This document shows positions 4,319-63,128 of a stretch of 64,000 bases of DNA, in pieces (the first letter of the stretch is position 1; every line of letters begins with the position of its first letter). Location: positions 1-64,000 of IMG/VR virus record IMGVR_UViG_3300044729_001198, one strand, 5' to 3'. The position numbers and the translations under genes are program-made. The stretch is from a virus. The notes under the pieces are model-generated. The model ran no database searches, had not been told where the DNA came from, and was given only the letters and a program-made list of their open reading frames with translations.

Positions 4319-5845
4319 TTATGAGTAGATAAAAATATCTCCATCAGCAGAAATTGCGATGTTACCTTCGTCATCATAACCAGCAGCTGTAGCCGCTGTA
4401 GATGCAGCAAATCCATTGGCAACCGACACATAGGCGGTAGTCATGAATGCGTCAGCAGTTACACTTGTAGCAGTAGAAGCTACACCATTAGCAACAGCCC
4501 AACGTTGGTCAAGGAAATCATAGTAGAATGCAGTACCTATACCAGCAGAACCTGATTCAACAATAATACCACCTTCGCCTGCTGGTACTACTGAACCAGA
4601 ACCAGCGTTCAAGAAGACAAATCTATCTTCAACAACAAGGTTAGATGTATTGATTGTAGTAGTTGTACCATTTACAGTCAAATCGCCAGTGATGGTCAAT
4701 GCAGCAAATGTTGGTGAATCGCCAGTCTGAACACCCAAGTCGATGTTAGTACCATTTACAGTCAAAGTACCTTGAGATGGTGATGTAACAGCCGAAGCGG
4801 AAACTACACCAGTACCATTCAAGATTGTAGCAGCAGTAATAGAACCACCCAATGATGTGGAAGTTCCAGCAATTGTAATAGCAGAGTTAGCCAATTTAGC
4901 ATTAGCTATCGTACCATTTACAATGTGTCCGTTTTGAATTGATGAAGAAGCAATTTTGACATCAGTTACGTTAGCATCAGCAATTTTAGCAGTAACCACA
5001 GCACCAGCAGCAATCTTACCACTTGTAACAGCATCGTTGTCGATTTTAGCGGTAGTTACACCAAGGTTTGCTAATTGACCACTATCAATAGAACCTGAAA
5101 TCACAACAGCACTAAGCGTACCCGCTGTATTTGTTAAATCGATAGTAGCACTATCAGTTACACCTGTAATAGCACCAGAACCTGATAAGATACCAGAACC
5201 TGCGAAACTAATCTTTGTGTATTCAATAGCAGCAGCAGCGGCTACAGCAGCGTTAACAATCTGACCTGCACCAATTTTAGCACTTGTAATAGCATTGTTA
5301 GCAATAGTAGCAACACCAGGCGCAGTAATTGTGATATCACCACTTACGTTTGTTAAGTTAGCGTAAGATGCTGAAGTAGCGGTTGAAGCGTTACCTGTTA
5401 AAGCACCAACAAATGTAGTAGATGTTACTGAAGATAAACCAGAAATTGTAGTAGCAGATGAACCTAATGAAACTGCGGTAGAACCAATAGTTACTGATGA
5501 GTTAGCCAATTTCGCGTTAGTTACGTTACCATCAATGATGTTTGCACTTGCAACTGAACCAGTAGCCAAAGCGGCTGTGATTACAGCACCAGCAGCAATT
5601 TTACTACTAACTACAGCATTATCAGCAATTTTACTAGCTATTACAGCACCAGCAGCCAACTGACCTTGGTCAATAGAACCTGAAGCTACCACACCACTAA
5701 TAGAACCTGCGGATAATGTTAAATCAATTGTTGCTGTATCGGTTACGGCGGTGACTGCGCCAGATCCAGACAAAATACCAGTACCAGCGAAACTCAATTG
5801 AGATACGGCTGAGCCCGATACTATCACTTTTTTCCATGTTGCCAT
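4319..5845 (-). CDS. Tail-fibre protein with pseudo-repeats
   Basis: The 508-residue protein starts [21 protein letters not shown]. It contains two tandem copies, about 200 residues each, of a fibre-like block (GILSGSGA...TDSATIDLT..., then many short KI/KL units such as AGAVIASKIADNAVVSSKI). Alanine/serine-rich pseudo-repeats of this type are typical of trimeric phage fibres. The region around residues 335-385 (VSASAVTSPSQGTLTVNG and QTGDSPTF) is shared with the downstream 227-residue protein. The C-terminus (from about residue 390) holds a short domain, NLVVEDRFVFLNAGSGS, seen at fibre ends. AGGAGAAATTA precedes the start. The gene belongs to the fibre operon. Confidence 0.75.
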   Translation of the reverse strand: MATWKKVIVSGSAVSQLSFAGTGILSGSGAVTAVTDTATIDLTLSAGSISGVVASGSIDQGQLAAGAVIASKIADNAVVSSKIAAGAVITAALATGSVASANIIDGNVTNAKLANSSVTIGSTAVSLGSSATTISGLSSVTSTTFVGALTGNASTATSASYANLTNVSGDITITAPGVATIANNAITSAKIGAGQIVNAAVAAAAAIEYTKISFAGSGILSGSGAITGVTDSATIDLTNTAGTLSAVVISGSIDSGQLANLGVTTAKIDNDAVTSGKIAAGAVVTAKIADANVTDVKIASSSIQNGHIVNGTIANAKLANSAITIAGTSTSLGGSITAATILNGTGVVSASAVTSPSQGTLTVNGTNIDLGVQTGDSPTFAALTITGDLTVNGTTTTINTSNLVVEDRFVFLNAGSGSVVPAGEGGIIVESGSAGIGTAFYYDFLDQRWAVANGVASTATSVTADAFMTTAYVSVANGFAASTAATAAGYDDEGNIAISADGDIFIYS

Positions 5846-5909
5846 TTAATTTCTCCTATTTTAATGCATTAAAAATTTAACATAGTGTTTTTGTATACAT
5901 GAATAAATA

Positions 5910-6557
5910 TTATAATCCAAAGTAAAACGAAGAACCGGAATAAATAATTCCACCTTCAATTGCTTCTAAATTCAAATTTGAACTATCACCAATAATTGTT
6001 CTACCAACGGAATCAACTTTCAATCCTTCAAATGAACCACTTGATACTGATAGTGAACCTGTAATTTGAACATTATTTGTTGTTGAGTAAAAAGAACCCG
6101 TTAATGAAAATATTCCACCAATTCCACCAAGTGTATCAAATCTAGATGCAATTGATGCTGATAATGACGTGAAAGCCCCACTAATATCAGTTTTTAGTGC
6201 GTATGAACTTGTAACTGAATTTAAACCATTTACTTGACTTTGAATTGAACCTGTAAATGTGTTAAGTGCTGAAATATCAGTTCCACCTGAAGATGGGAAT
6301 TGGAATGTAGCAAATGAAGCTGAATCATCAAATCCAGCATAACCTGGAGTTTCAAATGCTACAAATTTTGAAGTAACATAAAGTTGGTTTTGACTTTGTA
6401 CATATACAATTTGACCATCCTTTAACCGGTCGTGGTATAAGGAGTACATAGTCGAGGATGACGCAACCGTAATCCAACCGCCTTGTACATAAGTAATGTC
6501 GGTAAATGAGCCGGAAGCCCCACTCCTAACGTAAATATCACCTGCTGTAGTTGCCAT
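5910..6557 (-). CDS. Structural protein, probably fibre or adhesin accessory (215 aa)
   Basis: The start is MATTAGDIYVRSGASGSFTD, with AAGGAG about 10 nt upstream. Residues 1-75 are a beta-rich head domain. Residues 90-175 are a serine-rich segment (GSIQSQVNGLNSVTSSYALK...SLSASIASRFDTLGG) with heptad-like spacing of the kind that trimerises in fibres. The end (about 176-215) is a small beta domain (VDSVGRTIIGDSSNLNLEA). There are no catalytic motifs. It lies 14 bp after the 1,214-residue adhesin-like gene and is probably co-transcribed with it. Confidence 0.65.
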   Translation of the reverse strand: MATTAGDIYVRSGASGSFTDITYVQGGWITVASSSTMYSLYHDRLKDGQIVYVQSQNQLYVTSKFVAFETPGYAGFDDSASFATFQFPSSGGTDISALNTFTGSIQSQVNGLNSVTSSYALKTDISGAFTSLSASIASRFDTLGGIGGIFSLTGSFYSTTNNVQITGSLSVSSGSFEGLKVDSVGRTIIGDSSNLNLEAIEGGIIYSGSSFYFGL

Positions 6558-6571
6558 TCTATCTAATCTCC

Positions 6572-9500
6572 TTATGGTGCGGATGCCGTATCCGGCATCA
6601 AATAATATCTTGAGTTGTTAGTATTTTTACCTTCAGCAAAAATCATACCCCAACGGGTATATCCTTGATATGCTGATTGTAAATCGAAGTAATACACACC
6701 GGTCCCAATCGTACCTGGAATAGCAGCGTCTTTAGCATATGTGTAATATTCATTAGCAGTTCCAATAGAATCGGGCGGAACGCCATCATACATACTTGCG
6801 GGTTTACCTCCTAAATTAGAAGCGGATGGGAAAATTATTAACAATCGTTGTGATGTGGAACTAAAATTAAAATACCCAAGTGTGGATATTCCTGTAGCTG
6901 ATGTATCTGACATAGTTGATAGCGAACTACTCTTATGTAAAGTACAAGCACCACCAATATAAGATGGTGTAAACGTACTACCTAATGACCCACTTTGTAA
7001 CATAGCTATTACCGACCCACTTGTAATTCCAATACCATCAGCATCAGTATCACCTAAAGATGCGATAGCCGTGGATTGGTTAGCAGCAGAACCACCACTC
7101 CAACCATATCCATATACAAGGCCTATTTGGTCTGATATAGTTATTGTATTTGAAGAATATGTTCTTGACTTACCATGCACATCCGTAATTGTAGCATCGT
7201 ATGTCAATGTTTGACCACTTGAAATTGTTGATACATTTTTTATAACATATGATGATGAATTTGCGTTTTGTGGAACTGCGTATAAGTCAGACCCATTTGT
7301 ACCACCAAGTGACATTAAGAATGGAGTATCAGTTTCCATGTCAGTTATACTTGCACTTACTAATCCGGTATTGGCCGATATAGATGCCGTTAGGTTAGTA
7401 GTAATTGGGGTGAATGATGCCGTTGGTACACTATTAGAAGCCACATTTATTGTTATACTACCACTACCAATGTTATTGTATTGGTCACGGAATGTTATAT
7501 TTGATGTAAATGTTTGACCTGATGTGTAAGAGCCACTAACATTTTGTGCTATTGATATAGCGCCAGTTGAGGTAACACCTACAAGAGCATTCGATGATGT
7601 AAATGATTGAACCGCAGCCAAATTGTATTGTGGTGAGTATGTAACTCCCAAATCACCTTGAGTACCACTTCTACCATTTGTACTTGTGTAAATCAAAGCA
7701 CCACTTCTTGCAGTTTCTATAACGTAGAACGTACCATTTGTTGTTAAAGTACCAACAGGAGCTTGAGCGATGGTTATTGAGAATGGGAATGAAGCAGAAC
7801 CACTTCCCACTTTACCAAAACTATCAGCAACGCTTCCACTAAATGTATAAGTTCCAGCGGGTACATTTGTATTAGCATAAATGTAATAGTTGTCACCACT
7901 TTGAAGATGACTAAATCCAGCTGAAGAAGATACTAATTGGAAACTTGAATGATTTATAGTATCACCAATACCAGGTTGTGGTTCTCCAAATGAAACAATG
8001 GCTAGATTTTGAGGTGACCTAGCCCCATTTGTATTTAAATAACTCGAATACGCAACCGTATTAGAAGCAATGATGGGTGCTAAATTTGGAGTAACTCTTA
8101 ATGTGTGAGTTCTATATTGTTTTGTGGTTTCAAACGAAGTTTCTGAAGCCGTTACTTGTACTTGAATTGTAGAGCCAGACGTGTATATAGAACCACTTAT
8201 ATGACTTGCTAGTTCAAGAGCAAGTGATGTAGAGCCGGTATATTGTGTAGTTCCGTTTGTAAATCTAACATACCCAGCCGGTGAACTATTGACTTTCCAC
8301 ATTTGTGAAACGGCTGACGAGTATGTAATACTACCAGCAGTATATCCATCGGTGTTTGTGGTTAAATCAGCACCAGATACTGCGGATTCTACTATGTAAT
8401 ACGTTTGTGTATCAGACCCAATAGTTGAACTAGCATCAGCATCAATTGGTATGGTGATTTCTGCGGTATCGGTAGTGGTATTGTAAGCATCACTCACGGT
8501 CACTAAATAAACATATCTATCAGCTACATCAGAGTTTAAGTAAACTCCATTTTTACGAGTTACACTTCCACCGGATGTACATTGGAATGGGTCAGCGTGT
8601 GGGTCATATAAAGACGTACCACCTAAAGACGAAGTAATGTTTGTACCAACACTATTAAGATATGCGGATATTAATGTGAAGTTACTAAATACTATAGTAT
8701 CACTCTCCGAATCAGTAGCAGTTATTGAACCAACAGTCGTACCATTTGATGAGTTTTCATTTATAGCAGTTAAAGTCTGATTATTTACTACAGGAACTAC
8801 GTTATCGACTACTGAAACTCTAAATGGTAAGTATGTAATTGAATCAGAATCATCACCATCTTGATAATGTTGGTCACTTGCCGTGAGTACAAAATTGTAA
8901 TGAGTTGTGGTCTCATAATCCAATGAAGCAGTTACTTGATTCAATTGAACATATGTAGCGCCAAGCGTCAATGAGAATTCGGATGGTACTGACCCCGTTC
9001 CTATTGTGATTGTATCACTTTCAGCATCGGTAAAATATACTCTAACTTTGTTATTAGCAGCTGTAGAGTTTTCGTTTAAAGATTGTGTATATGATGTTAC
9101 AATAGAGCCCCCAGTTGAAGTTTGTCTCCAAACAGGAGCCGTATTTGGATTAACACGGATATATACAGTTTGAGAACCAACTCCAAAAAATGTATCAACG
9201 GCTTCTACCAAAAATGGATGTGAACCAGAACCCGGAGTGGTATCCGTATTCATAGATGCGGTTGATTTTGTGTTCAATGTAATTTGACCGGCCGATGATA
9301 TCTTGAATAAGTCAGCGGTGTACAAACTTGAAGTTCTAAATGTAATTGATTGTGCTTCAGCATCGGTAGCAGATACAATACCGACCACCGAACCACTAAC
9401 CTCAAATTCTTGAATAGTAAATCCAGTAGTTGTTATTACAGGAACACTATTTGGAAAGAATACTTTTTCAATAAAATTTGCAAGAGAACCACTTGTAGCG

Positions 9501-11050: not shown

Positions 11051-12646
11051 TTAGATAGTTGAACCCAATGTGTTCAAACCATCAACAAATACTTTACCGT
11101 AGAACTCACCACGAATCATTTCCTTCGCGTAACGAGTCATTACACCCTTACGAGGTTGGAAGTTTTTCGGGTCGTACACCAAAGGAGTCATGATTAATGG
11201 AATGTATGGAGCGTATACAGCACCAGTTTCCAAGAATTGAGCACCTTTGAAACCTAACAAGATAACGTTTTCAGTCATGTAAGGGTTTTTGTACACTTGG
11301 TAGCGGTTAGCGAATGAACCTACTTGAGATACACCCATTGCGAACTGCATTTCAGCACCAGTACCACTAGCAGCGAATCCAGGGATAGATTCAAGGATAG
11401 TTGCAACGTCAGGAGATACTACCATAAAGTTAGCTCCACCTCTCATGGTTTTAGCATGGATTTGGTTAGAAACTCTCTGAAGTACAGTACCTAATGTAGC
11501 GAACCATGTACCTTGAATGTAAGCAGTGTAGTTAGCAGCTGATTGAGCAAAAGCTGAACCATTCCATTCGTAACCAACACGAGCTGACCAGTAACCTGTA
11601 GTCAATGCGTTAGTCATCAACATATCCAAGATTTCGAAATCGATTTCTTGAGAAACGTATTCTGACAACATTGAAGTTAATTCAGCCTCGGCGTCAATTG
11701 AATGGTAAGCGTTCAAATCTTGAGCAAATTCAGGAGTCCATTGTGCTTTCAACTTACGAGTCTTAGCAACGATAGGAACTGAACGAAGTTCAACGTTTAA
11801 TTCAGGAATACCCAAATCAGTTTCAGGGTTTGCAGCGAAACCTGAAGTGGTTTGTTCGAAGTCACCACGAGTGATATCGCTTGGTTGTTTGTGGTAAGCA
11901 ACTTGTACAGCGGTAGCATTTGTTACAGCACCATCAGCTACTACGAATTCAACATAAGTAGAACCATCAGTTGTAGTCAAGTTTTCGATTACGTTAACGT
12001 AAGCAGAAGCGGACAACAATTGGAATGCACGAACGCCTTCGAAGTCAGCATTAAGACCAGCCAAGTTAACTTTTACAACATCGTAAGAGGTTGGAGCACC
12101 ATAACGTGAGTCGAAGTTAATAGAAGCTGAAGTAGCGTTTGAAGCTGTAGCGAATACAGTAGCAAATTGGTCGTTGATAGTATAACCAAAACGACCACCA
12201 CCATAAAGACCACCAGTTGCTTGACCAGCAGTTTCGGTGATACCGAATACTGAATCAGCTTGTGAATCTTTACCTGAACCGGTTGTGAAACCAGGTTGAC
12301 CTGAACCATACTTGAAATCCAAGTAGAATACAAGACCAGATGGTAAGTTCATAGGTTGTACTGAAACGAATTCTTTAGCAGCGATTTCAGAGAAGATACG
12401 TCTTACTAAAGGAAGAGCTACACCAGCCCATTCTTCAGAGTTAGCAGCAGTACCAGTAGCAGATGCTTCAGATACTAATTGTTTTGCTTGGTTTTCCAAC
12501 AAAGTAGCCATACCACTTCTTTCGAAGTCAGACTTGATACCTTCTAAAAGACCGGTCTTAGCCCATTTAGCTACGATACCTTTGCTCTCTTCAGATAATC
12601 TTTTGTTGAAACCAGCAGATTCATTTAAAATGTTATTGATTTTCAT
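11051..12646 (-). CDS. 23: Major capsid protein (gp23-like)
   Basis: This 531-residue protein matches T4 gp23 in size and in its N-terminal hallmark MATLLENQAKQL (residues 46-57). It forms the hexamers of the head shell. The N-terminal scaffold-targeting segment probably ends at QLVSE60|ASAT, which fits the gp21 rule (hydrophobic-x-Glu, then a small residue) and sits close to the T4 gp23 cleavage position. The C-terminal half carries motifs common to gp23 homologues (TPEFAQDLNAYHSIDAEAEL; RGGANFMVVSPDVATIL). AAAGGAAAATTAAG precedes the start. It lies directly downstream of the scaffold gene, the same order as T4 genes 22-23. Confidence 0.97.
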   Translation of the reverse strand: MKINNILNESAGFNKRLSEESKGIVAKWAKTGLLEGIKSDFERSGMATLLENQAKQLVSEASATGTAANSEEWAGVALPLVRRIFSEIAAKEFVSVQPMNLPSGLVFYLDFKYGSGQPGFTTGSGKDSQADSVFGITETAGQATGGLYGGGRFGYTINDQFATVFATASNATSASINFDSRYGAPTSYDVVKVNLAGLNADFEGVRAFQLLSASAYVNVIENLTTTDGSTYVEFVVADGAVTNATAVQVAYHKQPSDITRGDFEQTTSGFAANPETDLGIPELNVELRSVPIVAKTRKLKAQWTPEFAQDLNAYHSIDAEAELTSMLSEYVSQEIDFEILDMLMTNALTTGYWSARVGYEWNGSAFAQSAANYTAYIQGTWFATLGTVLQRVSNQIHAKTMRGGANFMVVSPDVATILESIPGFAASGTGAEMQFAMGVSQVGSFANRYQVYKNPYMTENVILLGFKGAQFLETGAVYAPYIPLIMTPLVYDPKNFQPRKGVMTRYAKEMIRGEFYGKVFVDGLNTLGSTI

Positions 12647-12678
12647 CTTAATTTTCCTTTTTTCTTTTGGTTTTAGAA

Positions 12679-13644
12679 TTATTTAATTAAACCAGCCAAC
12701 TTCTTAAATCTTTCAGCTACTGCAGTTCCTTCAGAAATGATTTCTTTTTTAGGAGCAGATGACTTCATAGGTTTAGAAGCAAGTGATTCTTTTACAACAG
12801 TTTTGTTTTTTCTTGCAACATTTAAGTTTTCACCTAATGTAGCATAAACTAATTTAACTTCTCTCAAAGATGCAGCTCTATCGAAGTTTTCGATAACTTT
12901 CATCTTTTGATTTTCGTTCAAGTCGAATGTTCTGAACAATTTGTTAGTGTATAACAATTTAGCGTTCAAAAGATTCACCTCGTTAATGGTTTTCTTTAAA
13001 GAAGTGATAACTTTATAAGCCTCTTCCAACTCTTCCTTGTAACCTTCAGTAGATTCTTCTTCTTCAGCAACGGGCTCTTCTTCTTCGCCATCCATTTCTT
13101 GTAAGGCTTTGATGATTTCGTTGATGTCAAGTTCTTCCTCTTCTTCAGATACAGGTTCATCTTCCATTTCTTCTTCAGCAACGGGCTCTTCACCCATTTC
13201 ATCTTCTTCAGAAACTTCTTCTTCACCGGCCATAGCGTCTTCAAGTTCTCTGATTACAGCTTCAAGGTCTAAATCGTCTTCTTCAGTCTCTTCTTCCTCG
13301 TCACCAGTAACATCGTACTCTTCACCATCTTCTTCAGAATCCATGTCCATTTCCATGTCTTCTTCACCCTCTTCAGAATACATTTCCTCATCTTCTTCAG
13401 TAGCCATCTCGTCTTCTTCAGTAGCCATCTCGTCTTCTACAGGTTCGTCAGTAGTCATTGCGTCCATCTCTGGTGCAACTTCTTCTTCGTCTTCCTCTTC
13501 CAACTCTTCAGCAATCTTATGAGACAACATAGATTGTAGTTTTGGGGTAAATGCTTCTTCGAGAGCCATTTTAGCGTTAGCTAATGCAGTTTCCTTAACG
13601 GCTTTGGCATCGGCAATTGCTTCTTTTAACAAATCTGATTTCAT
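12679..13644 (-). CDS. 22: Prohead core scaffold protein (gp22-like)
   Basis: The 321-residue protein is extremely acidic, with long Glu/Asp runs over residues 45-200. It has a helical N-terminus (MKSDLLKEAIADAKAVKETA) and a basic, helical C-terminus ending FKKLAGLIK. This composition, the helical C-terminal domain and the position just before gp23 all fit T4 gp22. The core protein is degraded by gp21 during head maturation. A candidate cleavage site, EIISE|GTA, lies near the C-terminus (around residue 300). TTTAGGAGAAAAAC is a strong ribosome binding site, as expected for a protein needed in hundreds of copies. The serine-rich plus-strand ORF opposite it is a shadow of the acidic codons. Confidence 0.88.
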   Translation of the reverse strand: MKSDLLKEAIADAKAVKETALANAKMALEEAFTPKLQSMLSHKIAEELEEEDEEEVAPEMDAMTTDEPVEDEMATEEDEMATEEDEEMYSEEGEEDMEMDMDSEEDGEEYDVTGDEEEETEEDDLDLEAVIRELEDAMAGEEEVSEEDEMGEEPVAEEEMEDEPVSEEEEELDINEIIKALQEMDGEEEEPVAEEEESTEGYKEELEEAYKVITSLKKTINEVNLLNAKLLYTNKLFRTFDLNENQKMKVIENFDRAASLREVKLVYATLGENLNVARKNKTVVKESLASKPMKSSAPKKEIISEGTAVAERFKKLAGLIK

Positions 13645-13677
13645 TTGTTTTTCTCCTAAATTAAGCTTTTTGGATAA

Positions 13678-13794: not shown

Positions 13795-14076
13795 TTAACC
13801 TTCGTTTATTCTTCGAATATACTCTTTTCGTTGAGCATCTTCTCTTTGTTTTCTACGAAGTGTTGTGGGTTTTGTGTACTCTTTCTTATCTCGTAAGATA
13901 TCCATCATCCCACTATCTTTTACAGTACGTTTTAGTAATCGAAGTGCGGCTTCTAAATTACCATCTACTACTTTTACACCAAGCGCGTTCCCATACATGA
14001 ACATATCATCTTTACGGGCCCTCTTCTTCTTTTTGAAGTCTTTGTTTTGATTGTCTCTGTTGTTCTTTTTATACAT
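13795..14076 (-). CDS. rpsU: Ribosomal protein bS21 homologue
   Basis: Residues 33-90 match bS21: VKVVDGNLEAALRLLKR (basic face of helix 1), then SGMMDILRDKKEYTKPTTLRRKQRED, with the characteristic Y-x-KPT turn. bS21 sits on the 30S subunit near the 3' end of 16S rRNA and affects mRNA selection. The phage protein has an extra basic N-terminus of about 27 residues (MYKKNNRDNQNKDFKKKKRA), longer than usual bS21. Another start at M25 or M27 would give a standard-length protein, but no better ribosome binding site is visible. No Shine-Dalgarno sequence precedes ATG 14076 (AAATAAATTTT), unlike most neighbours. The gene lies between head genes, just after a terminator-like hairpin. Confidence 0.9.
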   Translation of the reverse strand: MYKKNNRDNQNKDFKKKKRARKDDMFMYGNALGVKVVDGNLEAALRLLKRTVKDSGMMDILRDKKEYTKPTTLRRKQREDAQRKEYIRRINEG

Positions 14077-14090: not shown

Positions 14091-14129
14091 TAAAAAAAAT
14101 ACACCTACCAAGTTAATGATAGGTGTATA
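14091..14129 (-). terminator. Hairpin with U-tract upstream of bS21
   Basis: The minus-strand RNA forms AUACACCUA / UAGGUGUAU (9 bp) followed by UUUUUUUUAAU. It reads as a terminator for the upstream prohead genes. It ends only about 15 nt before the bS21 start codon, so bS21 is expressed either by read-through or from a promoter overlapping the hairpin (a TATTTATA motif abuts it at 14128-14135). It could equally be a regulatory leader structure. Confidence 0.75.
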
Positions 14130-14155
14130 TAAATATGAAAATGTTTTTTATAAAA

Positions 14156-16575: not shown

Positions 16576-17214
16576 TTATTTAACTCCAAAATCACATTCG
16601 CAATATCCACCAACTTCACAAATGATATCTCTCATGATGGTATTCGCTTTAGTATAATTAGTTTGTTTTCTTTGAACACTTTCGTTTATAACACCCTCAT
16701 TTGTGGGTCTCAAGAAAGCACCTTGGGTTGATGGGTTTGATACAAAGTCCCAACAGATTAATTCGAAATCATTTTCAACTGCAACTGTACCATCTTCTTT
16801 GATTTGTTTTACCGAACCCATACCTCGTGATGAGATACCAACAGTACAACCGGCCTTGACCAATTCTTGTAAAATTTTACCAGCAGGTGTATTTAAAATC
16901 TCAACTTGACCCACTACATCATCACCATTCCACCAAACTTCACGGATAATGTGTGACGTATTCTTCAATTCAACAACTGAAGATTCAGGGTGGTCAAGTT
17001 CACCATATGCACGGTTCTCTCTGATTTCTCTACCCTTGTATTTTTCAATTTCTCTTTCAAGAATATCTTTTGGGTAAACTCTACCATTTTGATTTTTAGC
17101 ATTAGCTCTTTGAAGTACACCGCTGACAACGAATCTACCACTTTTATCGTATGATTCTTTTAACATTTGAGGTGTAATCTCAAATAAACTAACATCAATC
17201 AGTAATTGTTTCAT
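16576..17214 (-). CDS. 21: Prohead core protease (gp21-like)
   Basis: This is the T4 gp21-type serine protease, which cleaves scaffold and capsid proteins after [IL]-x-E during head maturation. Conserved features include the N-terminal RFVVSGVLQRANAKNQNGRV block, the catalytic-histidine region AYGELDHPESS and the serine region CTVGISSRGMGSV. The length of about 212 residues is normal. The start MKQLLIDVSLFEI at 17214 is preferred, since GGGAG lies 6 nt upstream and the ATG overlaps the TAA of the 47-residue gene (TAATG). Another ATG lies 12 nt earlier. Its likely substrates are its neighbours. Confidence 0.92.
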   Translation of the reverse strand: MKQLLIDVSLFEITPQMLKESYDKSGRFVVSGVLQRANAKNQNGRVYPKDILEREIEKYKGREIRENRAYGELDHPESSVVELKNTSHIIREVWWNGDDVVGQVEILNTPAGKILQELVKAGCTVGISSRGMGSVKQIKEDGTVAVENDFELICWDFVSNPSTQGAFLRPTNEGVINESVQRKQTNYTKANTIMRDIICEVGGYCECDFGVK

Positions 17215-17357
17215 TATTTCTCCCAAACTTGTCTTTTACGATATAAATCAAAAAATATTCTTGCAATTTCCCTGCGGATTATATAACGAACCTGCTCAAG
17301 GTCATCAACTTCAAGAGCTTCTTTCAATTTTGAATTTTTGTTACATCCACAAGACAT
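17214..17357 (-). CDS. Small Cys-containing head-cluster protein (47 aa)
   Basis: The frame from ATG 17357 to TAA 17214 encodes a protein starting MSCGCNKNSKLKEALEVDDL with a helical remainder (EQVRYIIRREIARIFFDLYRK). Its stop overlaps the gp21 start (TAATG), and its start lies 1 nt after the stop of the 167-residue gene, so it is fully embedded in the operon. It occupies the place of the small T4 core genes 67/68, but I see no sequence similarity. CxC near the start could bind metal. It is too short for most gene callers. Confidence 0.65.
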   Translation of the reverse strand: MSCGCNKNSKLKEALEVDDLEQVRYIIRREIARIFFDLYRKRQVWEK

Positions 17358-17358
17358 A

Positions 17359-17862
17359 TTAAGCACCCAATTCTTTAATCTTACGAGAAATCTTTAACAT
17401 TCTTTCGGAAATCTTACCAAATCTTACTTTTGTAGATTCCCAATACTGACCTTGACTCAATCCCATTTCAGTTTTAAGTTTTGTGTTCTGATTTACCAAT
17501 TGTTCAACCTCATATAACTTGCGATTGATTTCTTTGATAGCCAAATTTACTTTCTTTTTAGCAGAAAGGGTTTCGTCTTTTTTATACGCTCTATAAGTAG
17601 CCTCGATTAGACTTTCCAATTGGTCTTCCATACGAGATACAGCCTCAAAGTGTGCTTTTTCTTTTTTGGACTTTTTGTAACCTAAAACCTCAATGTGGTC
17701 GGAGTCTAAATCGTCTTCATCTTGTGATTTAGCAAATGCGTTAGGTGTCCGTGGTGGTCCAGCGCCACCATCCATATTACCTGTAACATTTGCCTCTTCA
17801 AGCTCTTCTTCTTCGAATTGCTTAAATTTTAAGTCAAGTTGTTCTAATAAAAATTTAGACAT
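17359..17862 (-). CDS. Prohead core-region protein (167 aa)
   Basis: The protein is helical, charged and without Cys. It starts MSKFLLEQLDLKFKQFEEEE, has a low-complexity middle (NVTGNMDGGAGPPRTPN) and a long predicted coiled coil from about residue 75 to 165. AAGGAG precedes the start. The start overlaps the end of the 282-residue gene by 8 bp. Position between portal and gp21 matches T4 genes 67-68, which encode prohead core components, so a core role is likely. No sequence family is recognised with certainty. Confidence 0.6.
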   Translation of the reverse strand: MSKFLLEQLDLKFKQFEEEELEEANVTGNMDGGAGPPRTPNAFAKSQDEDDLDSDHIEVLGYKKSKKEKAHFEAVSRMEDQLESLIEATYRAYKKDETLSAKKKVNLAIKEINRKLYEVEQLVNQNTKLKTEMGLSQGQYWESTKVRFGKISERMLKISRKIKELGA

Positions 17863-18703
17863 TTGATACTCTCCTTAATTCTTGTAGCAATTCGTGGTAT
17901 CTTAACAACGATAAAATTTGATTTTCGTTGATTACCTTTGAATTTGATATATTATCAATTAAATTTACAGTCTCATTAACTTTAATACTTGCAACTTTAT
18001 CAGTCACCTTCACTTTTGAAAATTCAGACTTTAGTCTTTTAACTTCAGACAATACAAACTTTCTCAAATTGTTTGAGTTGTCCACATTGTTGATATAGTT
18101 ACGAAGAACCTTCTTTTGTGATTCTGAAAGTGTTGTATATTTTGAATTAAACGAATCAACCAAGAATTTATAAGCCAACATACGAACCTCTTTAGGTTGT
18201 TGAGCATATTCTTTGGTTGTGGTTGACTCTGAAATGATTTCTACGTCTTTTGTAGTAATGGTTTCGAGAATTGTCGTTTTACATTCTACGAATTCTTTTG
18301 GAGAAACTGATTGAGTGTACTCAAATACCTTGTATATAGAAGCCAATTGTTTGTAGTTCGATACACGATACTTAAAAAAATCTTCCATTACAAAAGATTC
18401 TTTAATTGACTTAATTAAATTATATTTTTGTCTCTTCAATGTCGTTTCAACCAATGAACCTCGTTCTTGTAGAATAATATTCATAAATTCTTGAGCTTTA
18501 TATTGAGAATCAAAGTTTTCCTTTGTTAAAGATTGATATAGTTTCAATTCTTTACTCAATTCACTCCCTCTCTTGAAATGCTTTTTAATAATTTCAAGGG
18601 CAAGGGAATTTTTACCCGCCAAAGTGTCTGAAGCGATTTGTCTTACGAGTAATTCGAATAGAATACCCGTATTTTTAAATTTACTATGTTTAAGTTTCGT
18701 CAT
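17855..18703 (-). CDS. Conserved T4-type head-cluster protein (282 aa)
   Basis: This predominantly helical protein starts MTKLKHSKFKNTGILFELLV and ends LSLLRYHELLQELRRVS. It lies directly after the portal gene. Proteins with this N-terminal style (K-x-K-N-T-G-x-L-F-E-L-L) occur next to the portal gene in marine T4-type phages, but their function is not established. There are no catalytic motifs. AAAGAGAAAG precedes the start. Confidence 0.55.
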   Translation of the reverse strand: MTKLKHSKFKNTGILFELLVRQIASDTLAGKNSLALEIIKKHFKRGSELSKELKLYQSLTKENFDSQYKAQEFMNIILQERGSLVETTLKRQKYNLIKSIKESFVMEDFFKYRVSNYKQLASIYKVFEYTQSVSPKEFVECKTTILETITTKDVEIISESTTTKEYAQQPKEVRMLAYKFLVDSFNSKYTTLSESQKKVLRNYINNVDNSNNLRKFVLSEVKRLKSEFSKVKVTDKVASIKVNETVNLIDNISNSKVINENQILSLLRYHELLQELRRVSNV

Positions 18704-30910: not shown

Positions 30911-30927
30911 AATAATAAATATCCAAA

Positions 30928-39466: not shown

Positions 39467-39497
39467 CAAATATACGAAATTATTTTGAATAATCAAA
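39467..39497 (-). promoter_or_regulatory. Bacteroidota-type promoter for primase
   Basis: TTTG (39494-39497), 19 bp, TATATTTG (39467-39474) matches the TTG / TAnnTTTG consensus. The spacer holds the inverted repeat ATTATT-CAAAA-TAAT. It overlaps the stop codon of the endonuclease gene. Transcription would begin at about the primase ATG. Confidence 0.75.
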
Positions 39498-51552: not shown

Positions 51553-53469
51553 TTAAAACAATCTAACTACCTTACCACGGATGTCCGTGTCAGGATATTT
51601 TACTTCAAAAATAGCTGGGTCTTTGGGTGGGTATATCATACCATTTCGAGTTGCGTTTTTCATATCGTATTTGTTTGATGAATATAATCCATCATATTTG
51701 TTTACTATTTGTAAACCACCCTCACCATTTTCATTTGGTCTAACTACACTTTGTACACCCTTTACACCATCCAATAATACATACACATCCGATAGGTTTA
51801 TTGGTTGATTTATTTGCATATTATCAATGTGGAAATATTTCTTTAGAGCATCTACACATCTTAATAAAACTTCATTAGAGTTGTAGTTTGGTAATACAAT
51901 GATTTCAAAATCAATACCAACGTTGACTATATGTGCGTTTTTAATATTTACAGCATCAGTTAAAATTCTATAATATGACAAATAGTTTTTAAGATTCTCT
52001 TTGGTAGCTGTATTTAAGTTTTTTAATCTTTGATTAGCATCATAACCAAGAATATAGAAGTTTATAGCTAATGGATTTGGAATTCCGTTTTTCACATAAG
52101 TACCATCAAGAGCGGTTGATACTTGGAAATCAGGAGCAACATAAGCTTTAGATACCGACCCAAATTGAGGCGGCATTGCGTACGCTCTTAATACATAGTC
52201 TTCACGAGTTACTGCTCGATTTTGAGCTCTGAAATATGATATAGCATTTTGGCGTACTTCTTCAATTTCTTCTTCGTATTTACCACCACCAGCAGCCGCT
52301 TCATTTGTTGCGGCTATTGAACGTTGAACCACACGATATACTGTACCATCCAAATCAGTAGCATCGTTTTCTAAAATTAAATCGGATATTTTTGTAAGGT
52401 CTTGAGATGGTACGTTATCGACTACACCATTACCAACTCGATATGTAACAGTTAATGTTGTATTCGCTGGAGCTACACCATATGTTTTTGAATACATAAA
52501 GTTAGATGGGTCAATTCCTTGGTCAAGATTTGAAGTAGCATTGTATAACGCAGAACCAACATTAGTTGGGTTTGGTAAGATTTCTTCATCAGCATTTGAT
52601 GATACGCCTGCCCCAAACTGAATGTCTATTGAACCATCGTCAACAATTCGAGTTACGAATCGCTTTGGAACTTTTTTAAGTCTTAATAGATATGGAGTTT
52701 CTGAAGCGTATACTGACATTTGTAGTGAATAGTCGGTTGTATTTGGTACTTGTTCAAATACAGTATCTTGAGCAAGATATTCTACTTTAGACCACACGTC
52801 ACCATCATCATCCATGATTTTAATCACATCAATCAAACCATCATCTTCGATTTTTATTTTGTCGTAAATCTTTGGAGTAGTAAATGTAAATGTGGATGTT
52901 TTTTCTTCACCACTTACAGCTTTTACATATTTTTTAAGAAGATAATAGATTGGTTCATTCGTAGTTTCGTCTATCTGATAAACCGTTACTTCAGTTGGGT
53001 CATATGATGATGAGAACGAAAAGTTTACTTTTTCAATTGTTGAGAATACCACATTCGGATTTGATACCGATGAGGCCTTCATACCTTCTTTGATTGTTAA
53101 TGCGTAGTCAAAATCAGGAGCTACATTATCACCAACACCCTTTGATGGTACAATTTGATAAACACTTAAAGTTGTACTCGCAGGAACATTCAGTTTTGGT
53201 TTGTAACCAAATGATTGTGCTATTGTAAATACATTCTTTTTTTCTTGAGCTTCTTCAAGAATAGATTCTCTCAATTGAACGTCTGTATAATATGAAAGTA
53301 CGTCACCAACATATGAAGCCATTTCCATGAACATCATTCCGGGTGACGACTCGTTAAAATCGTTATATGTTTGTGGGAAGTAATTCTTTGTGAAGTCAAT
53401 TAGATTTTGTCTAATATCTCCAAAATCACGACCAATTAAATTAACTTCTTTTTTTATTTTGTCTGCCAT
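51553..53469 (-). CDS. 6: Baseplate wedge protein (gp6/J-like)
   Basis: The 638-residue protein fits the T4 gp6 / phage baseplate J family: N-terminal FTKNYFPQTYNDFNESSPGM, FMEMASYVGDVLSYYTDVQL (about 48-67), then the core motif AVTREDYVLRAYAMPPQFGS near residue 425. The C-terminal region (QPINLSDVYVLLDGVKGVQS) is the segment that contacts gp25. It builds the wedge ring that triggers sheath contraction. GAGGAATATAA precedes the start. It lies 9 bp after gp25. Confidence 0.9.
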   Translation of the reverse strand: MADKIKKEVNLIGRDFGDIRQNLIDFTKNYFPQTYNDFNESSPGMMFMEMASYVGDVLSYYTDVQLRESILEEAQEKKNVFTIAQSFGYKPKLNVPASTTLSVYQIVPSKGVGDNVAPDFDYALTIKEGMKASSVSNPNVVFSTIEKVNFSFSSSYDPTEVTVYQIDETTNEPIYYLLKKYVKAVSGEEKTSTFTFTTPKIYDKIKIEDDGLIDVIKIMDDDGDVWSKVEYLAQDTVFEQVPNTTDYSLQMSVYASETPYLLRLKKVPKRFVTRIVDDGSIDIQFGAGVSSNADEEILPNPTNVGSALYNATSNLDQGIDPSNFMYSKTYGVAPANTTLTVTYRVGNGVVDNVPSQDLTKISDLILENDATDLDGTVYRVVQRSIAATNEAAAGGGKYEEEIEEVRQNAISYFRAQNRAVTREDYVLRAYAMPPQFGSVSKAYVAPDFQVSTALDGTYVKNGIPNPLAINFYILGYDANQRLKNLNTATKENLKNYLSYYRILTDAVNIKNAHIVNVGIDFEIIVLPNYNSNEVLLRCVDALKKYFHIDNMQINQPINLSDVYVLLDGVKGVQSVVRPNENGEGGLQIVNKYDGLYSSNKYDMKNATRNGMIYPPKDPAIFEVKYPDTDIRGKVVRLF

Positions 53470-53478
53470 TTATATTCC

Positions 53479-53913
53479 TCAAACTAATGTCATACTTCCT
53501 TGTGATGTTATTGTCATTGTGATATTTCTATTAGCCCCATTTTCAGTAACTTTATAATTTAAAGATATGTTTATCCTATTTGTATCTTCATTAACGTTTA
53601 CGTTGATAGAGTCAATTATTATGTATGGTAACCAGTATTTAATATCTTCTGTCAATGAATTTGAAAGTGAGTCTTCAAGGTCATCGGTCATTTGTTCAAA
53701 TAACAATGAGTAAACATCAGTACCAAAAAATGGTTGAAATGGACGTTCACCCTTTCGAGTCAACAATAAATTCTTTAGATTTGAAATAGACTGCTCTTCG
53801 GTAGTGTAGGATAATTTAAATAAGGGGTCACCACCCAATGGTAACATAACACCAATGGCTGTATTCTTTTTTAAATCAAGTGGATTTATTTTCCATTCCC
53901 TACGAGTAGCCAT
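53479..53913 (-). CDS. 25: Baseplate wedge subunit gp25-like
   Basis: This 144-residue protein has the gp25/lysozyme-like wedge fold: LSYTTEEQSISNLKNLLLTR, then KGERPFQPFFGTDVYSLLFE (the conserved GE-R-x-x-P-x-F-G block). It also has a C-terminal beta strand pair. gp25 links gp6 to the tail sheath and starts sheath polymerisation. Its start shares a base with the stop of the 166-residue gene. The partner gene 6 follows directly. Confidence 0.94.
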   Translation of the reverse strand: MATRREWKINPLDLKKNTAIGVMLPLGGDPLFKLSYTTEEQSISNLKNLLLTRKGERPFQPFFGTDVYSLLFEQMTDDLEDSLSNSLTEDIKYWLPYIIIDSINVNVNEDTNRINISLNYKVTENGANRNITMTITSQGSMTLV

Positions 53914-54413
53914 TACATACCCTTCTTCTTGGCGTCAATTGCTTTCATTAAAGCTGAATAGTCTTTTGTTAAAGCGTCAACAACAGCAGCACCAGCTTCA
54001 GTTTTTTGAAGTTGTTCTACCGATACCGACCTACCTTCTGCCGTTTCAAGAACTCCGCTTTGTATTGAACCAAACCCTTGAGCCACGTTAGATGTGAATA
54101 CACGACTACCGCCAGTTGAATTGATACTTCTCCACTCACCACTTTCGGCGGTCTCATTTAGTAAATTTGAAAACTTCCCACCAAATTGGACTGTTGCCTT
54201 TTTTGTTACAGTGTTTGTGGTGTTTGATTCAAATAGATGGTCAACGTCTAATGGGTCTTTTTCAACCTTTTTAGCTATCGGTTTTTTGTTGGAGGTCAGT
54301 TTCATTTCTTTCAAAATGGATTCACGAATGGCTTTTTCACGTTTAGCCATTTCTTTTTTAACCTCTTCTTTAACGATGATTTGAATCGCTTTAAATAGTT
54401 TATTTGTGTCCAT
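53913..54413 (-). CDS. Baseplate-region protein of unknown function (166 aa)
   Basis: A helical charged N-terminus (LFKAIQIIVKEEVKKEMAKR, then KAIRESILKEMKL) is followed by a disordered middle and a C-terminal helical end (GAAVVDALTKDYSALMKAID). It has the look of a small assembly or hub-linking protein. A TATTTAT motif ends 4 nt before its start, and no Shine-Dalgarno sequence is visible. It is encoded between the spike-like protein and gp25. Confidence 0.55.
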   Translation of the reverse strand: MDTNKLFKAIQIIVKEEVKKEMAKREKAIRESILKEMKLTSNKKPIAKKVEKDPLDVDHLFESNTTNTVTKKATVQFGGKFSNLLNETAESGEWRSINSTGGSRVFTSNVAQGFGSIQSGVLETAEGRSVSVEQLQKTEAGAAVVDALTKDYSALMKAIDAKKKGM

Positions 54414-54436
54414 AGTAATAAATATCTTTAAATTAA

Positions 54437-57577: not shown

Positions 57578-58213
57578 TTATATAATTTGGTCAATAATTC
57601 CAAGTTCAAGTGCTTGTTCAGCATTTAAGAAGTAATCTGATTTTTGATTCTCTTCCCAATACGTTTTATCTTTTTTAGTGAATTGCCCCATTAACTCATT
57701 ACATTCATCCTCAAGTTGTTCGGAGAATTTAGCATTTGATTTAACATCACTTAATTTACCAATGGCAAATGTGGATAATTGGTGAACCATGATTTTGGAG
57801 TGTTTACTTGCGGTTCGAGTACCCGTACCAGCCGCCAATAATAAAGCAGCAGCGGACATAGCCATACCTCTACAAATTATATTAAACGTGACTCCTTGAG
57901 ATTTCATACTATGAATATAGTCGATTAAAGCAAGAGTCTCCACCACATCACCACCCGGTGAGTTAAGCATAACATTAATTACACTAGCGTCTTTGTTTAT
58001 TTTACGAATCAATCTCACTTTAGAGATTACATCAAAAGTTAAACCATGTACAATCTCGTCTTGAATTAAAATTACATTATCAGTAAAGTCAATACCATAA
58101 TCAAATTCACGAAAATATTTTCTTTGGTTATCGGTATCACTACCATCAACATTAGTGTCTTCAAATCTAATGTTGGTGGTGTCACCGGTAGTAGTTACAT
58201 ACAATTCATCCAT
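57578..58213 (-). CDS. clpP: ClpP-type serine protease
   Basis: The fold and the catalytic triad are visible: Ser120 in GMAMSAAALLLAAG, His144 in KIMVHQLS and Asp193 in KSDYFLNAEQAL. NSPGGDV (84-90) marks the substrate-binding strand. Phage ClpP homologues act in head maturation or in host protein turnover; here the phage also has gp21, so a second role is likely. The gene has its own host-type promoter, placing it with early rather than late genes. The length (211) is normal. Confidence 0.9.
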   Translation of the reverse strand: MDELYVTTTGDTTNIRFEDTNVDGSDTDNQRKYFREFDYGIDFTDNVILIQDEIVHGLTFDVISKVRLIRKINKDASVINVMLNSPGGDVVETLALIDYIHSMKSQGVTFNIICRGMAMSAAALLLAAGTGTRTASKHSKIMVHQLSTFAIGKLSDVKSNAKFSEQLEDECNELMGQFTKKDKTYWEENQKSDYFLNAEQALELGIIDQII

Positions 58214-58235
58214 AACTTTTTATATTATATTAAAT

Positions 58236-58267
58236 CAAATATACGAAATTCTTTTGAAGAATCCAAA
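58236..58267 (-). promoter_or_regulatory. Bacteroidota-type promoter for clpP
   Basis: TTTG (58264-58267), 20 bp, TATATTTG (58236-58243). The spacer holds the inverted repeat ATTCTT-CAA-AAGAAT. The box GATTCTTCAAAAGAATTTCG is nearly identical to that of the primase promoter (two substitutions), suggesting one shared control. Confidence 0.75.
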
Positions 58268-59537: not shown

Positions 59538-60467
59538 TTAAGCATTGCCCATATTATGCCCCTTTGGGTGTTTACCAAATTTGGAAATGTAATCTAACAC
59601 AGTCAGTTCTTTCATCTTGGCTTCAATGTCAATATCAAGGTCATGACCATATGTATTGATTTCCGAATAGATGAAGTCAGAGTGTGCTTGTGGTTTAGCA
59701 GTAGGGTCTTCTAACGTCTTTGATTCTGAATAGTGGACAAGTGGTTTGACATCACCCCAAGTAGACATAGCAAGTTCAAGGGCTTCTTGTTCGGTCAGTC
59801 CGCCAGTATTGAATGTATGGTGGTGGTAGTCGAACACAATAGGGATACCAGTACGTTCGTGGATATACATAAGGTCTTTAACTGAATACATACTACCTTT
59901 GTCATCATTCTCAACAGTCAGTCGTGTTTGAACTGATTCTGGTAACAATTCAAAATTCTTACAAAATCTATCCATAGCAGATTGCTTGTCACCATACACA
60001 CCATTACAATGGATGTTAATAAGGTTGTACGGACTACGTTCCAATCCCATAAGGTCAAAGTGTTCACCATGAATAGATAAGTCTTTGATGGTGTTCTTAA
60101 CCACGTTCTCGTTAGGTGATACTAACACATTGAATGGACCAGGATGAGACGTGATACGTTGATTGTACATATTAGCGAGACTACCGGCACCACGAAGTAC
60201 ATTTGAAAACTTGTCAAAGTCTGGCATATCTGATAACTGAAATTCAGTAGCCCATGGTACAAGGTCCGATGTCATACGAAATAGTCCGAACCCATTTTGG
60301 TGATTCCACTTGATAATCTCTACAAGGTCACGAGCGTTTTGGAGTGCTAGATTGGATGACCTACTAATACCTTCCTTGAGAAATGTCTTCTTGACCATAG
60401 AACGATTTGTGGTAATCTTTTGTTTACCAAGGGTCATGTTAATACAGCAATATCCTAATTGTGTCAT
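59538..60467 (-). CDS. uvsE: UV-damage endonuclease (UvsE/UVDE)
   Basis: The 309-residue TIM-barrel enzyme nicks DNA 5' to UV photoproducts. Metal-binding and active-site blocks match the family: MTQLGYCCINMTL at the start, FGLFRMTSDLVPW, SHPGPFNVL, NIHCNGVYGDKQSAMDRF, LTVENDDKGSMYS (with the catalytic glutamate) and PIVFDYHHHTFN. A host-type promoter lies just upstream, inside the downstream arm of a terminator. The enzyme would serve a phage in sunlit water, which fits an aquatic origin. Confidence 0.95.
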   Translation of the reverse strand: MTQLGYCCINMTLGKQKITTNRSMVKKTFLKEGISRSSNLALQNARDLVEIIKWNHQNGFGLFRMTSDLVPWATEFQLSDMPDFDKFSNVLRGAGSLANMYNQRITSHPGPFNVLVSPNENVVKNTIKDLSIHGEHFDLMGLERSPYNLINIHCNGVYGDKQSAMDRFCKNFELLPESVQTRLTVENDDKGSMYSVKDLMYIHERTGIPIVFDYHHHTFNTGGLTEQEALELAMSTWGDVKPLVHYSESKTLEDPTAKPQAHSDFIYSEINTYGHDLDIDIEAKMKELTVLDYISKFGKHPKGHNMGNA

Positions 60468-60483
60468 ATCTTTTAGTTATATA

Positions 60484-60514
60484 CAAATGTAATAAAAAAA
60501 AAGGACTTATACAA
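60484..60514 (-). promoter_or_regulatory. Bacteroidota-type promoter for uvsE, fused to a terminator
   Basis: TTG (60512-60514), 20 bp, TACATTTG (60484-60491). The TTG is part of the terminator hairpin of the RNA-ligase operon, and the U-tract is the spacer. Confidence 0.75.
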
Positions 60515-60525: not shown

Positions 60526-60532
60526 TTTTTAT

Positions 60533-61657: not shown

Positions 61658-62067
61658 AACTTCAATTCAAATCGATTTTTCATTTGTTCTAACTTATCGT
61701 CAGGCACACCATGTACGTTTACACCACCATGTCTATTTTCAACTACTAATGAGTAAACTCTATATCCATATTGTTTAGCCAATTCAAAGTATGTTTGCAT
61801 TTCCCATTCTTGGGTAAATGTATTTGATACTACAATTTTTCGATAGAATTGGTCATTAACCAAAGAATCTTTCATATAAGTTTCAACTGTATTTCTACAA
61901 AACTCATGTGCATCTTTTAATTTAGAACCATCAAAGTTGTAGTTACCTTCTTTATCATAAAAATACTTATCAGCTTCACATATTAAGAAATCACTTCCTA
62001 CTATTGAATTTGCTAATGTTGATTTACCACTGCCGGGCAATCCTCTTAATAAAAATAACTCTTTCAT
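61651..62067 (-). CDS. P-loop polynucleotide-kinase-like protein
   Basis: The 138-residue protein has Walker A LRGLPGSGKST (7-17), then ICEADKYFYDKEGNYNFDGS and a lid region with QEWEMQTYFELAKQYGYRVY. It resembles the kinase half of polynucleotide kinases and NEDD4BP2-type P-loop kinases. It would phosphorylate RNA 5'-OH ends and so prepare substrates for the ligase just downstream. It overlaps the phosphoesterase gene by 4 bp (ATGA). There is no phosphatase domain in this protein, unlike T4 Pnkp. Confidence 0.85.
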   Translation of the reverse strand: MKELFLLRGLPGSGKSTLANSIVGSDFLICEADKYFYDKEGNYNFDGSKLKDAHEFCRNTVETYMKDSLVNDQFYRKIVVSNTFTQEWEMQTYFELAKQYGYRVYSLVVENRHGGVNVHGVPDDKLEQMKNRFELKLC

Positions 62068-62714
62068 ATTAATCTTTTTTCGTGATGGTCTTTAGGTAAA
62101 CATAATTTTTTAATAGGTCGGTCTTTTAACAAGTCTAAAATTTCAACAAGTTCGATTGGGTATAGTTCGTTACCATCCATACCAACATCCATAGCACGAC
62201 CCTCGGCAATACGATGTTGTGGATACAGGTGACAATGACCATGTAAGTGCATTATACCAGCATTCATGTTATCCCAACTTGCAATTGGATAATGCATACA
62301 CACAAATGAAAACTTATCTACAAATTTACCATTTGGGATTCGTAAGTCAAGATACAAATACTCATGGATTGACTTGAACAACCTCTGAATGTTTTCTTTA
62401 TTTCTACGAATGTGGTGGTCGTGGTTACCAAGAACCAAGTGTATGTTTTTACAAAGAATCCTATTCCTAAACTCTTCAATCTTATCAAACCCACCAAACG
62501 ACCAATCTCCCATGTGAATCAAAACATCGTTTTCACCCACCACCTCGTTGATGTTGTTCACAATAGCATCGTTCATCTCTTCAATAGAATCAAAGTGACG
62601 AGCGGTATCATCAGCATCCTTCCAATTCGTGGTAGCTGAACAAATGTTTGCGTGACTATAATGGGTATCGGATGTGAACCACAATCGTTGACCCTTTTCT
62701 AATACTAATTTCAT
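62064..62714 (-). CDS. Calcineurin-type metallophosphoesterase
   Basis: All metal-binding motifs are present: FTSDTHYSHANI (13-24), HMGDWSFGGFD (67-77), LGNHDH (94-99), CMHYPIASW and HLHGHCHLYP. With kinase and ligase in the same operon, it is a good candidate to remove 3'-phosphate or 2',3'-cyclic phosphate from RNA ends, as the central domain of bacterial Pnkp does. The start codon lies 4 nt after the promoter -7 box, so the mRNA may be leaderless. Confidence 0.88.
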   Translation of the reverse strand: MKLVLEKGQRLWFTSDTHYSHANICSATTNWKDADDTARHFDSIEEMNDAIVNNINEVVGENDVLIHMGDWSFGGFDKIEEFRNRILCKNIHLVLGNHDHHIRRNKENIQRLFKSIHEYLYLDLRIPNGKFVDKFSFVCMHYPIASWDNMNAGIMHLHGHCHLYPQHRIAEGRAMDVGMDGNELYPIELVEILDLLKDRPIKKLCLPKDHHEKRLI

Positions 62715-62718
62715 AATA

Positions 62719-62749
62719 CAAATGTAAATAAAAAAGGGGACTTAAACAA
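62719..62749 (-). promoter_or_regulatory. Bacteroidota-type promoter for the RNA-repair operon, fused to a terminator
   Basis: TTG (62747-62749), 20 bp, TACATTTG (62719-62726). As at uvsE, the TTG sits in the hairpin of the preceding terminator and the U-tract is the spacer. Spacing and -7 box are the same as at uvsE. Confidence 0.78.
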
Positions 62750-62758
62750 GCCCCCTTT
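62730..62758 (-). terminator. Terminator after the Hsp20 gene
   Basis: The minus-strand RNA forms AAGGGGGCUU / AAGUCCCCUU (10 bp with one G-U pair, loop GUUU) followed by UUUUAUUU. It lies about 20 bp after the Hsp20 stop. Confidence 0.88.
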
Positions 62759-62777
62759 GTTAAAAAATTGTTAAGTT

Positions 62778-63128
62778 TTACTTTATCTTAACACGAACGG
62801 ATTCTTTTTTAGAACTTTTAACTTTGGGGATTCTAACAATCAAAATACCATTCTTTAATTCAGCCGTAGTTGATTCGGTATCAAAGCTTGAATTAATCTT
62901 GTACTTACGAGAAAAATGTCTAACTGAATTTTCAGCGTTCATAACCAAGACTCCCTCTTCAATGTTAATTGATACTTCGTCTTTTTCAAAACCGGGAATT
63001 TCAAATTCCATTTTTAATTCTGAATCAGTAACTTCCATGTGGTCATTTCTGATATCATAGTTTGTAGCAGCTGTTGACCACAAACTAAAATCTTTGTCGT
63101 CTAATAGATGTTTTAATAACGATGTCAT
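62778..63128 (-). CDS. hsp20: Small heat-shock protein (Hsp20/alpha-crystallin)
   Basis: The alpha-crystallin domain is complete: DSELKMEFEIPGFEKDEVSI, then GVLVMNAEN and the C-terminal AELKNGILIVRIPKVK with the I-x-I-type anchor motif. Hsp20 genes are common in T4-type marine phages and probably stabilise virion assembly or phage proteins. I choose the start MTSLLKHLLDD at 63128, because AAAGGAG lies 8 nt upstream; an earlier in-frame ATG at 63155 has none. Confidence 0.92.
   Translation of the reverse strand: MTSLLKHLLDDKDFSLWSTAATNYDIRNDHMEVTDSELKMEFEIPGFEKDEVSINIEEGVLVMNAENSVRHFSRKYKINSSFDTESTTAELKNGILIVRIPKVKSSKKESVRVKIK

Follow-up and report, generated by a model that had tools for sequence, protein, structure and literature searches.

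Ribosomes of Bacteroidota normally ignore Shine-Dalgarno (SD) signals. Among the ribosomal protein genes that phages carry, that of bS21 has been described as the most frequent by a wide margin. In Flavobacterium johnsoniae, bS21 hides the anti-SD (PMC9976891). On an SD template, F. johnsoniae ribosomes made 3x more protein with bS21 Y54A and 5x more with a C-terminal deletion of bS21, and this deletion halved SD-less translation (PMC9976891). In the autoregulation of host rpsU, as in the reading proposed below, the state of bS21 decides whether the ribosome uses SD; the same authors raise the possibility of host bS21 being removed by a phage protease, and speculate also on phage bS21 (McNutt et al. 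2023, PMC9976891).

Chen et al. 2022 described bS21-encoding Bacteroidetes phages in which bS21 and structural genes are expressed late, proposed a hijack of translation, and placed the N-terminal helix of bS21 above the anti-SD, in the position that a bound mRNA would take (PMC9723584). The sections of that paper considered here do not report SD usage of phage genes, and we found no report in open-licence papers of SD concentrated in the late genes of bS21 phages. As portrayed in those sections, the Chen-2022 phages are, like the phage studied here, T4-type myoviruses with bS21 beside terminase, portal, protease and capsid. However, their bS21 gene lies on the strand opposite the structural genes and encodes a host-like protein with Tyr54 or another aromatic residue, whereas the gene described here is on the same strand and encodes Arg54. 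In the Chen-2022-type loci that we examined, capsid and scaffold lack SD, and so does the protease in most cases.

Among isolated phages, the nearest are Microcystis phage Mel-JY01, with a portal 57% identical, and Flavobacterium phage immuto_2-6A (49%; NC_055915), whose host is Flavobacterium sp. LMO8. immuto_2-6A shares gene order, the late motif ATATTTAT, a leaderless gene class and GroEL/GroES with our phage, but no bS21 was found in it and SD is avoided throughout, as in Flavobacterium (7-8%). Mel-JY01 (PP395634.1; loci L172 and L471-L473) belongs to the same family, with Microcystis as host by its record label. It carries SD genome-wide, in 55% of all genes vs 18% at random ATGs, and also at its bS21 gene (-8.7). 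Within this one phage family, SD is thus genome-wide (Mel-JY01), absent (the Flavobacterium lineage) or concentrated in late genes (the lineage studied here).

A T4-Superfamily Myovirus

The window, which is the whole stretch of DNA analysed, comprises bases 1-64000 of a 186,631-base virus record. A simple gene caller found 191 genes, all on the minus strand, bS21 included; start codons are longest-ATG calls except where stated otherwise. PHROG matches identify a T4-superfamily myovirus (portal, terminase, prohead protease, major capsid, baseplate wedge, sheath, tube) that also encodes DNA polymerase, UvsX, NrdA, a clamp and a clamp loader. The host is very probably a member of the Bacteroidota. 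Within the window, Rfam gave no match and ARAGORN no tRNA.

SD Sites Are Concentrated in Structural Genes

SD strength was scored as the best gap-free helix between gene bases -16 to -4 and the 16S tail GAUCACCUCCUUUCU. Stacking energies were hand-entered Turner-2004-type values; the kcal/mol scores are therefore relative, and they were cross-checked by an energy-free motif count. An SD was counted as present at a score of -6 or stronger. As a positive control, 41/43 Flavobacterium rpsU genes scored -13 kcal/mol or stronger; as a negative control, 7.7% of 1159 Flavobacterium genes reached -6, compared with 23.6% of random ATGs.

The initial annotation had claimed that most structural genes carry SD, and named the scaffold, fibre genes, gp6, the 167-residue core protein and Hsp20. 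The sites are as follows (scores in kcal/mol):

4319-5845, fibre gene: SD AGGAG at 5853..5857, minus strand, -9.3
5910-6557, gene: SD AAGGAG at 6568..6573, minus strand, -10.2
11051-12646, major capsid gene: SD AAGGA at 12655..12659, minus strand, -8.7
12679-13644, scaffold gene: SD AGGAG at 13653..13657, minus strand, -9.3
16576-17214, prohead protease gene: SD GGGAG at 17220..17224, minus strand, -9.3
17359-17862, 167-residue core protein: SD AAGGAG at 17871..17876, minus strand, -10.2
51553-53469, gp6-like baseplate wedge gene: SD GAGGA at 53476..53480, minus strand, -8.1
Hsp20, if its start is the second ATG (63128): SD AAGGAG at 63135..63140, minus strand, -11.2

A third fibre-gene SD is GAGG (-8.1), besides AGGAG and AAGGAG. 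The named examples were borne out, with scores of -8.1 to -10.2 and, for Hsp20, -11.2 from the second ATG. In the window, 23/33 structural genes but only 3/15 other genes have an SD (P = 0.0019); taking the second ATG for Hsp20 and for the gene at 63195 raises the latter to 5/15 (P = 0.027). Over the whole record, SD was present in 12/15 late vs 5/18 early genes by PHROG annotation, and SD-rich stretches lie at 3-57 kb, at 110-118 kb, where the endolysins are, and at 170-186 kb, with sheath and tube. The pattern noted at the outset is genuine and extends further than had been seen. The tie to structural genes holds for the most part only: PhoH, Hsp20, GroEL and GroES also have SD, whereas portal, terminase and leaderless late genes lack it.

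The portal gene (18751-20604) is SD-poor in both clades of relatives described below (1/100 and 0/41), with neighbours that carry strong SD; perhaps few copies of the portal are needed.

Promoters and Leaders

Two motifs are directional upstream of genes across the record, ATATTTAT (32 on the coding strand vs 3 on the other) and TTCGTATAWTTG (12 vs 0). ATATTTAT, which the initial annotation had missed, marks many late genes and is predicted to be a phage-type (late) promoter motif. It recalls the late promoter of T4 (TATAAATA) in being an AT-only octamer near late starts, and the phage, of the T4 superfamily, has clamp and clamp-loader genes; the coding strand, however, shows ATATTTAT / TATTTATA, the reverse complement of T4 TATAAATA. 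A gp55 homologue was not found among ten genes scanned.

TAnnTTTG boxes had been annotated as host promoters. This stands for the full Bacteroidota sigma-ABfr form, TTTG-N19-21-TAHHTTTG, which occurs 18 times forward and 4 times in reverse in the window record, with 1.2 expected. It does not stand for the loose box TANNTTTG, which is barely enriched (108 vs 86.6 +/- 9 in the window) and was rejected as a host marker, being non-directional in most relatives and in immuto, a phage with a known Flavobacterium host. The full -33/-7 form alone serves as a marker, as it does in the window record and its relative G018. In F. johnsoniae the promoter box spans -12 to -5 and the transcript begins 4-5 nt past the box (PMC6847099); the transcript starts used here are predictions from this rule. 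The promoters concerned are:

27911-30910, gene: ATATTTAT at 30915..30922, minus strand, 12 nt before the ATG; predicted leaderless late gene, no SD
38517-39461, primase: host-type promoter TTTG...TATATTTG at 39467..39497, minus strand, start codon 13 nt from box start; predicted leaderless class, no SD
53913-54413, gene: ATATTTAT at 54418..54425, minus strand, 12 nt before the ATG; predicted leaderless late gene, no SD
57578-58213, clpP-like gene: host-type promoter at 58236..58267, minus strand; predicted leader of about 18 nt, A-rich, no SD
59538-60467, uvsE: -7 box TACATTTG at 60484..60491, minus strand, no SD
62064-62714, phosphoesterase: -7 box TACATTTG at 62719..62726, minus strand, 12 nt before the ATG; predicted leaderless class

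Starts lie 4-5 nt after the -7 box in phosphoesterase and primase, 16 nt in uvsE and 22 nt in clpP, and none has an SD, as had been noted before. Among genes behind full host-type promoters, SD was found in 1/11 in the window record and in 1/17 when G018 is included (P = 0.0003). In 6/11 of these genes the box starts 12-14 nt before the ATG, and they are therefore predicted to be leaderless. The late motif shows the same geometry: in four bS21-clade genomes there is a class at 12-14 nt, an empty gap at 15-16 and a broad class at 17-45. The 12-14 nt class is devoid of SD behind both promoter types (0/14 for the late motif and 0/10 for the host type). The scarcity of SD behind host-type promoters is thus partly due to the many leaderless genes. 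The initial annotation had taken the lack of SD behind the nearest promoters for host-like translation; the lack is no direct sign of this, as it follows from the leaderless geometry, whichever promoter type is concerned.

One might go further and regard both classes as a mere by-product of promoter geometry, leaderless vs leadered mRNAs, as the SD-less 12-14 nt class of both promoter types would suggest. We consider this highly improbable, and as a complete account it is refuted: leadered late-motif genes have SD in 31/57 cases in bS21 phages vs 1/38 in the clade without bS21, which shares the motif and its spacing. Geometry accounts for part of the SD-less class, and another part, the leadered host-type genes, is a genuine absence. 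Counts of 134/214 vs 14/163 for SD at leadered late-motif genes argue in favour of a bS21-dependent switch.

Six genes of genome G000 (66679-70424, 86606-89003 and 161445-161723) have a common leader, TANCTTTACWCTGTAA(TCA)ATGAGAGRYATG, and 'MRDM' or 'MRVM' starts. They make up a third promoter-leader class, probably an early one, with no SD at the first ATG.

The Phage bS21 Gene and Its Product

The bS21 gene sits between the prohead-core genes and the scaffold gene, and has the following parts:

13795..14076, minus strand: phage ribosomal protein bS21, 93 aa; PF01165, 48.7 bits vs a cut-off of 27; no SD (score -3.0)
14101..14126, minus strand: hairpin ACACCTATC-loop-GGTAGGTGT with T8 behind it, where the 5' end of the bS21 transcript is expected
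14129..14136, minus strand: ATATTTAT, predicted late promoter motif of bS21, directional

The hairpin follows directly on the late motif and has 12 pairs, 5 of them with double compensatory changes across 15 relatives; it is missing from the KKQKQH subclade. It could serve to terminate read-through from upstream and to stabilise the 5' end.

A bS21-dependent switch predicts that the bS21 gene itself lacks an SD, a prediction absent from the initial annotation. None of 128 bS21-anchored relatives reaches -6 at this gene; in the earlier set anchored on the major capsid protein (MCP), 3/49 did. The extended SD of host rpsU-type autoregulation is likewise absent before the window bS21 (-3.0). The phage arrangement inverts that of the host, where SD is very rare except at rpsU, whose own is exceptional (at most -13 kcal/mol in 41/43 Flavobacterium loci), while in the phage bS21 is without and the late genes are with SD. 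Since the portal gene is as SD-poor, the lack of SD is not peculiar to bS21.

In a gap-free alignment with F. johnsoniae bS21 (7jil), the window protein has Arg54 and Tyr57, and it carries a basic N-terminal extension. A feature of the anti-SD-hiding bS21 of Bacteroidia, the Tyr54 that stacks on A1534, is thus lacking. Among 62 aligned phage bS21 proteins, 28 have Tyr54 and three Phe54. A rule by which loss of Tyr54 means SD was rejected: about half of the SD phages keep Tyr/Phe54, which counts against the bS21 switch and indicates that loss of Tyr54 is not the common cause, and L065 and L304 have Arg54 without SD. Most SD phages encode a bS21 with a basic N-terminal extension ending in a PG motif. 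The corresponding rule fits most loci but was also discarded, as L037/L038, L172 and L502/L503 have SD without the extension. No single bS21 sequence feature that we considered divides SD from SD-less phages without exception. A tblastn search of named phages with the window bS21 gave no match, and the mixed bS21 alignment was too divergent for use as a search query.

bS21 and SD Use among Relatives

Relatives comprised about 160 MCP-anchored loci and 130 bS21-anchored loci, plus long or whole records (one of which, G010, is a 63-kb fragment). Among loci with bS21 (61 with at least 6 genes), SD was present at the capsid gene in 59/61 and at the scaffold in 59/61, with a median SD fraction of 0.65 vs 0.23 at random ATGs. 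The 78 loci without bS21 had a capsid SD in 9/75 and a median SD fraction of 0.14; several of these nine are contigs ending short of the bS21 site, and others (L049, L051, L068, L084) make up a small group. In the bS21-anchored set, SD was found at the scaffold in 106/106, the protease in 114/118, the capsid in 68/74 and the portal in 1/100.

The initial annotation had treated a difference in SD distribution between the classes as essential, and whole genomes display it: six genomes of the bS21 clade, pooled, have SD in 61/82 late vs 31/106 early genes (P = 9e-10). The SD motif in these six peaks at -10/-11, and SD is present in 36% vs 20% in a mock window. G005, which has bS21, displays no late/early contrast (6/12 vs 5/17). 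Three bS21-less genomes have SD in 3/40 late and 2/48 early genes, and SD-type motifs are depleted in this group. Whole-record searches found bS21 in 11/16 records; G006 and G007, which belong to the immuto clade, yielded none.

The four loci of that small group have a GC of 0.40-0.43, with SD at the capsid gene and little elsewhere; no bS21 was found in them.

The new result is comparative: a clade with head-operon bS21 and SD, to which our phage belongs, beside a bS21-less, SD-avoiding sister clade. bS21 and SD divide together along two MCP clades, and independent transitions of bS21 number no more than 1-2; a test by phylogenetically independent pairs, of which there are 1-2 only, hence has no power, and the link between bS21 and SD could stem from shared ancestry. 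Presence of bS21 as such was rejected as a predictor of SD, since Chen-type loci, L065 and L500/L501 have a host-like bS21 without SD (L065 except at the scaffold, L500/L501 in general). bS21 alone is therefore insufficient. L502/L503 have SD together with another bS21 type.

SD could be a trait inherited within the clade and linked to its late transcription, or to something besides bS21 that exposes the anti-SD: host bS21 might be lost or degraded, for example, or a phage protein for initiation or RNA binding might be at work. The clean two-clade split and the bS21 phages without SD speak for this, as does the speculation on a phage protease cited above. We nevertheless hold it to be unlikely: it leaves unexplained why bS21 sits in the head operon and why its gene lacks SD in 128/128 relatives.

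Alternatively, the host may use SD anyway, with an exposed anti-SD, and SD would simply boost highly expressed virion genes, bS21 being irrelevant. Consistent with this, the strongest SD belong to proteins needed in many copies, those of portal and terminase being weak, and the early genes are near background rather than SD-avoiding as in immuto or Flavobacterium. However, Mel-JY01, whose annotated host uses SD, has SD genome-wide and on bS21, whereas in our phage it is chiefly a feature of late genes and is missing from bS21. The sigma-ABfr-type promoters of the window record and the Flavobacterium host of the sister clade also argue against an SD-using host, which we regard as rather doubtful.

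A Possible Late Switch in Translation

The partition of SD, which falls mainly on late virion genes and not on early genes or bS21, suggests that the phage re-tunes host ribosomes late in infection, a timing that we infer from gene function and the late motif. A late switch involving phage bS21, as the initial annotation had envisaged, fits the comparative data better than its rivals, although bS21 presence alone does not predict SD. We consider a bS21-dependent switch the best explanation, if an unproven one, with prospects evenly balanced between right and wrong.

Host-type promoters would give the early and middle genes mRNAs without SD, leaderless or with short, A-rich leaders, and these should be translatable by unmodified Bacteroidota ribosomes, whose anti-SD is hidden by bS21, bS18 and bS6. 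Late genes would be transcribed from the phage-type motif ATATTTAT, and the leadered ones among them carry well-spaced SD, with the strongest at virion proteins made in many copies. The gene for phage bS21 would be read from the late motif, and because it has no SD, unmodified ribosomes could make phage bS21. This protein may then displace host bS21 and leave the anti-SD free, so that late SD-bearing mRNAs would outcompete SD-less host mRNAs. That phage bS21 is itself the translational switch, made from an SD-less mRNA, replacing host bS21, freeing the anti-SD and specialising ribosomes for SD-bearing late mRNAs, seems plausible to us, with the balance tilted slightly against it. If true, it would invert the feedback of host rpsU, and bS21 synthesis would damp itself as the switch completes.

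If these phages do free the Bacteroidota anti-SD late, they would be a natural instance of specialised ribosomes, with SD or its absence as an mRNA code that can be read. The question of why phages carry bS21 becomes testable with the existing F. johnsoniae SD and SD-less reporters. Whatever the mechanism, a clade with SD mainly in its late genes beside an SD-avoiding sister clade is a strong natural experiment on translation initiation.

Other Features of the Record and Its Relatives

The first 2 kb of the window have a GC content near 60%, compared with 34-38% in the rest; repetitive GXY-like coding extends to about 2.7 kb (1-2700) and resembles a collagen-like fibre repeat close to the end of the record. 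G000 has two Mom-like DNA modification genes (phrog_1384) in the same genome, at 138967-139578 and 145327-146082. Within the structural block of the window, the gene at 27911-30910, with its leaderless late motif upstream, encodes a 999-aa protein with an N-terminal cytidyltransferase (NadR-like) domain, and a similar large NadR-like gene is present in immuto.
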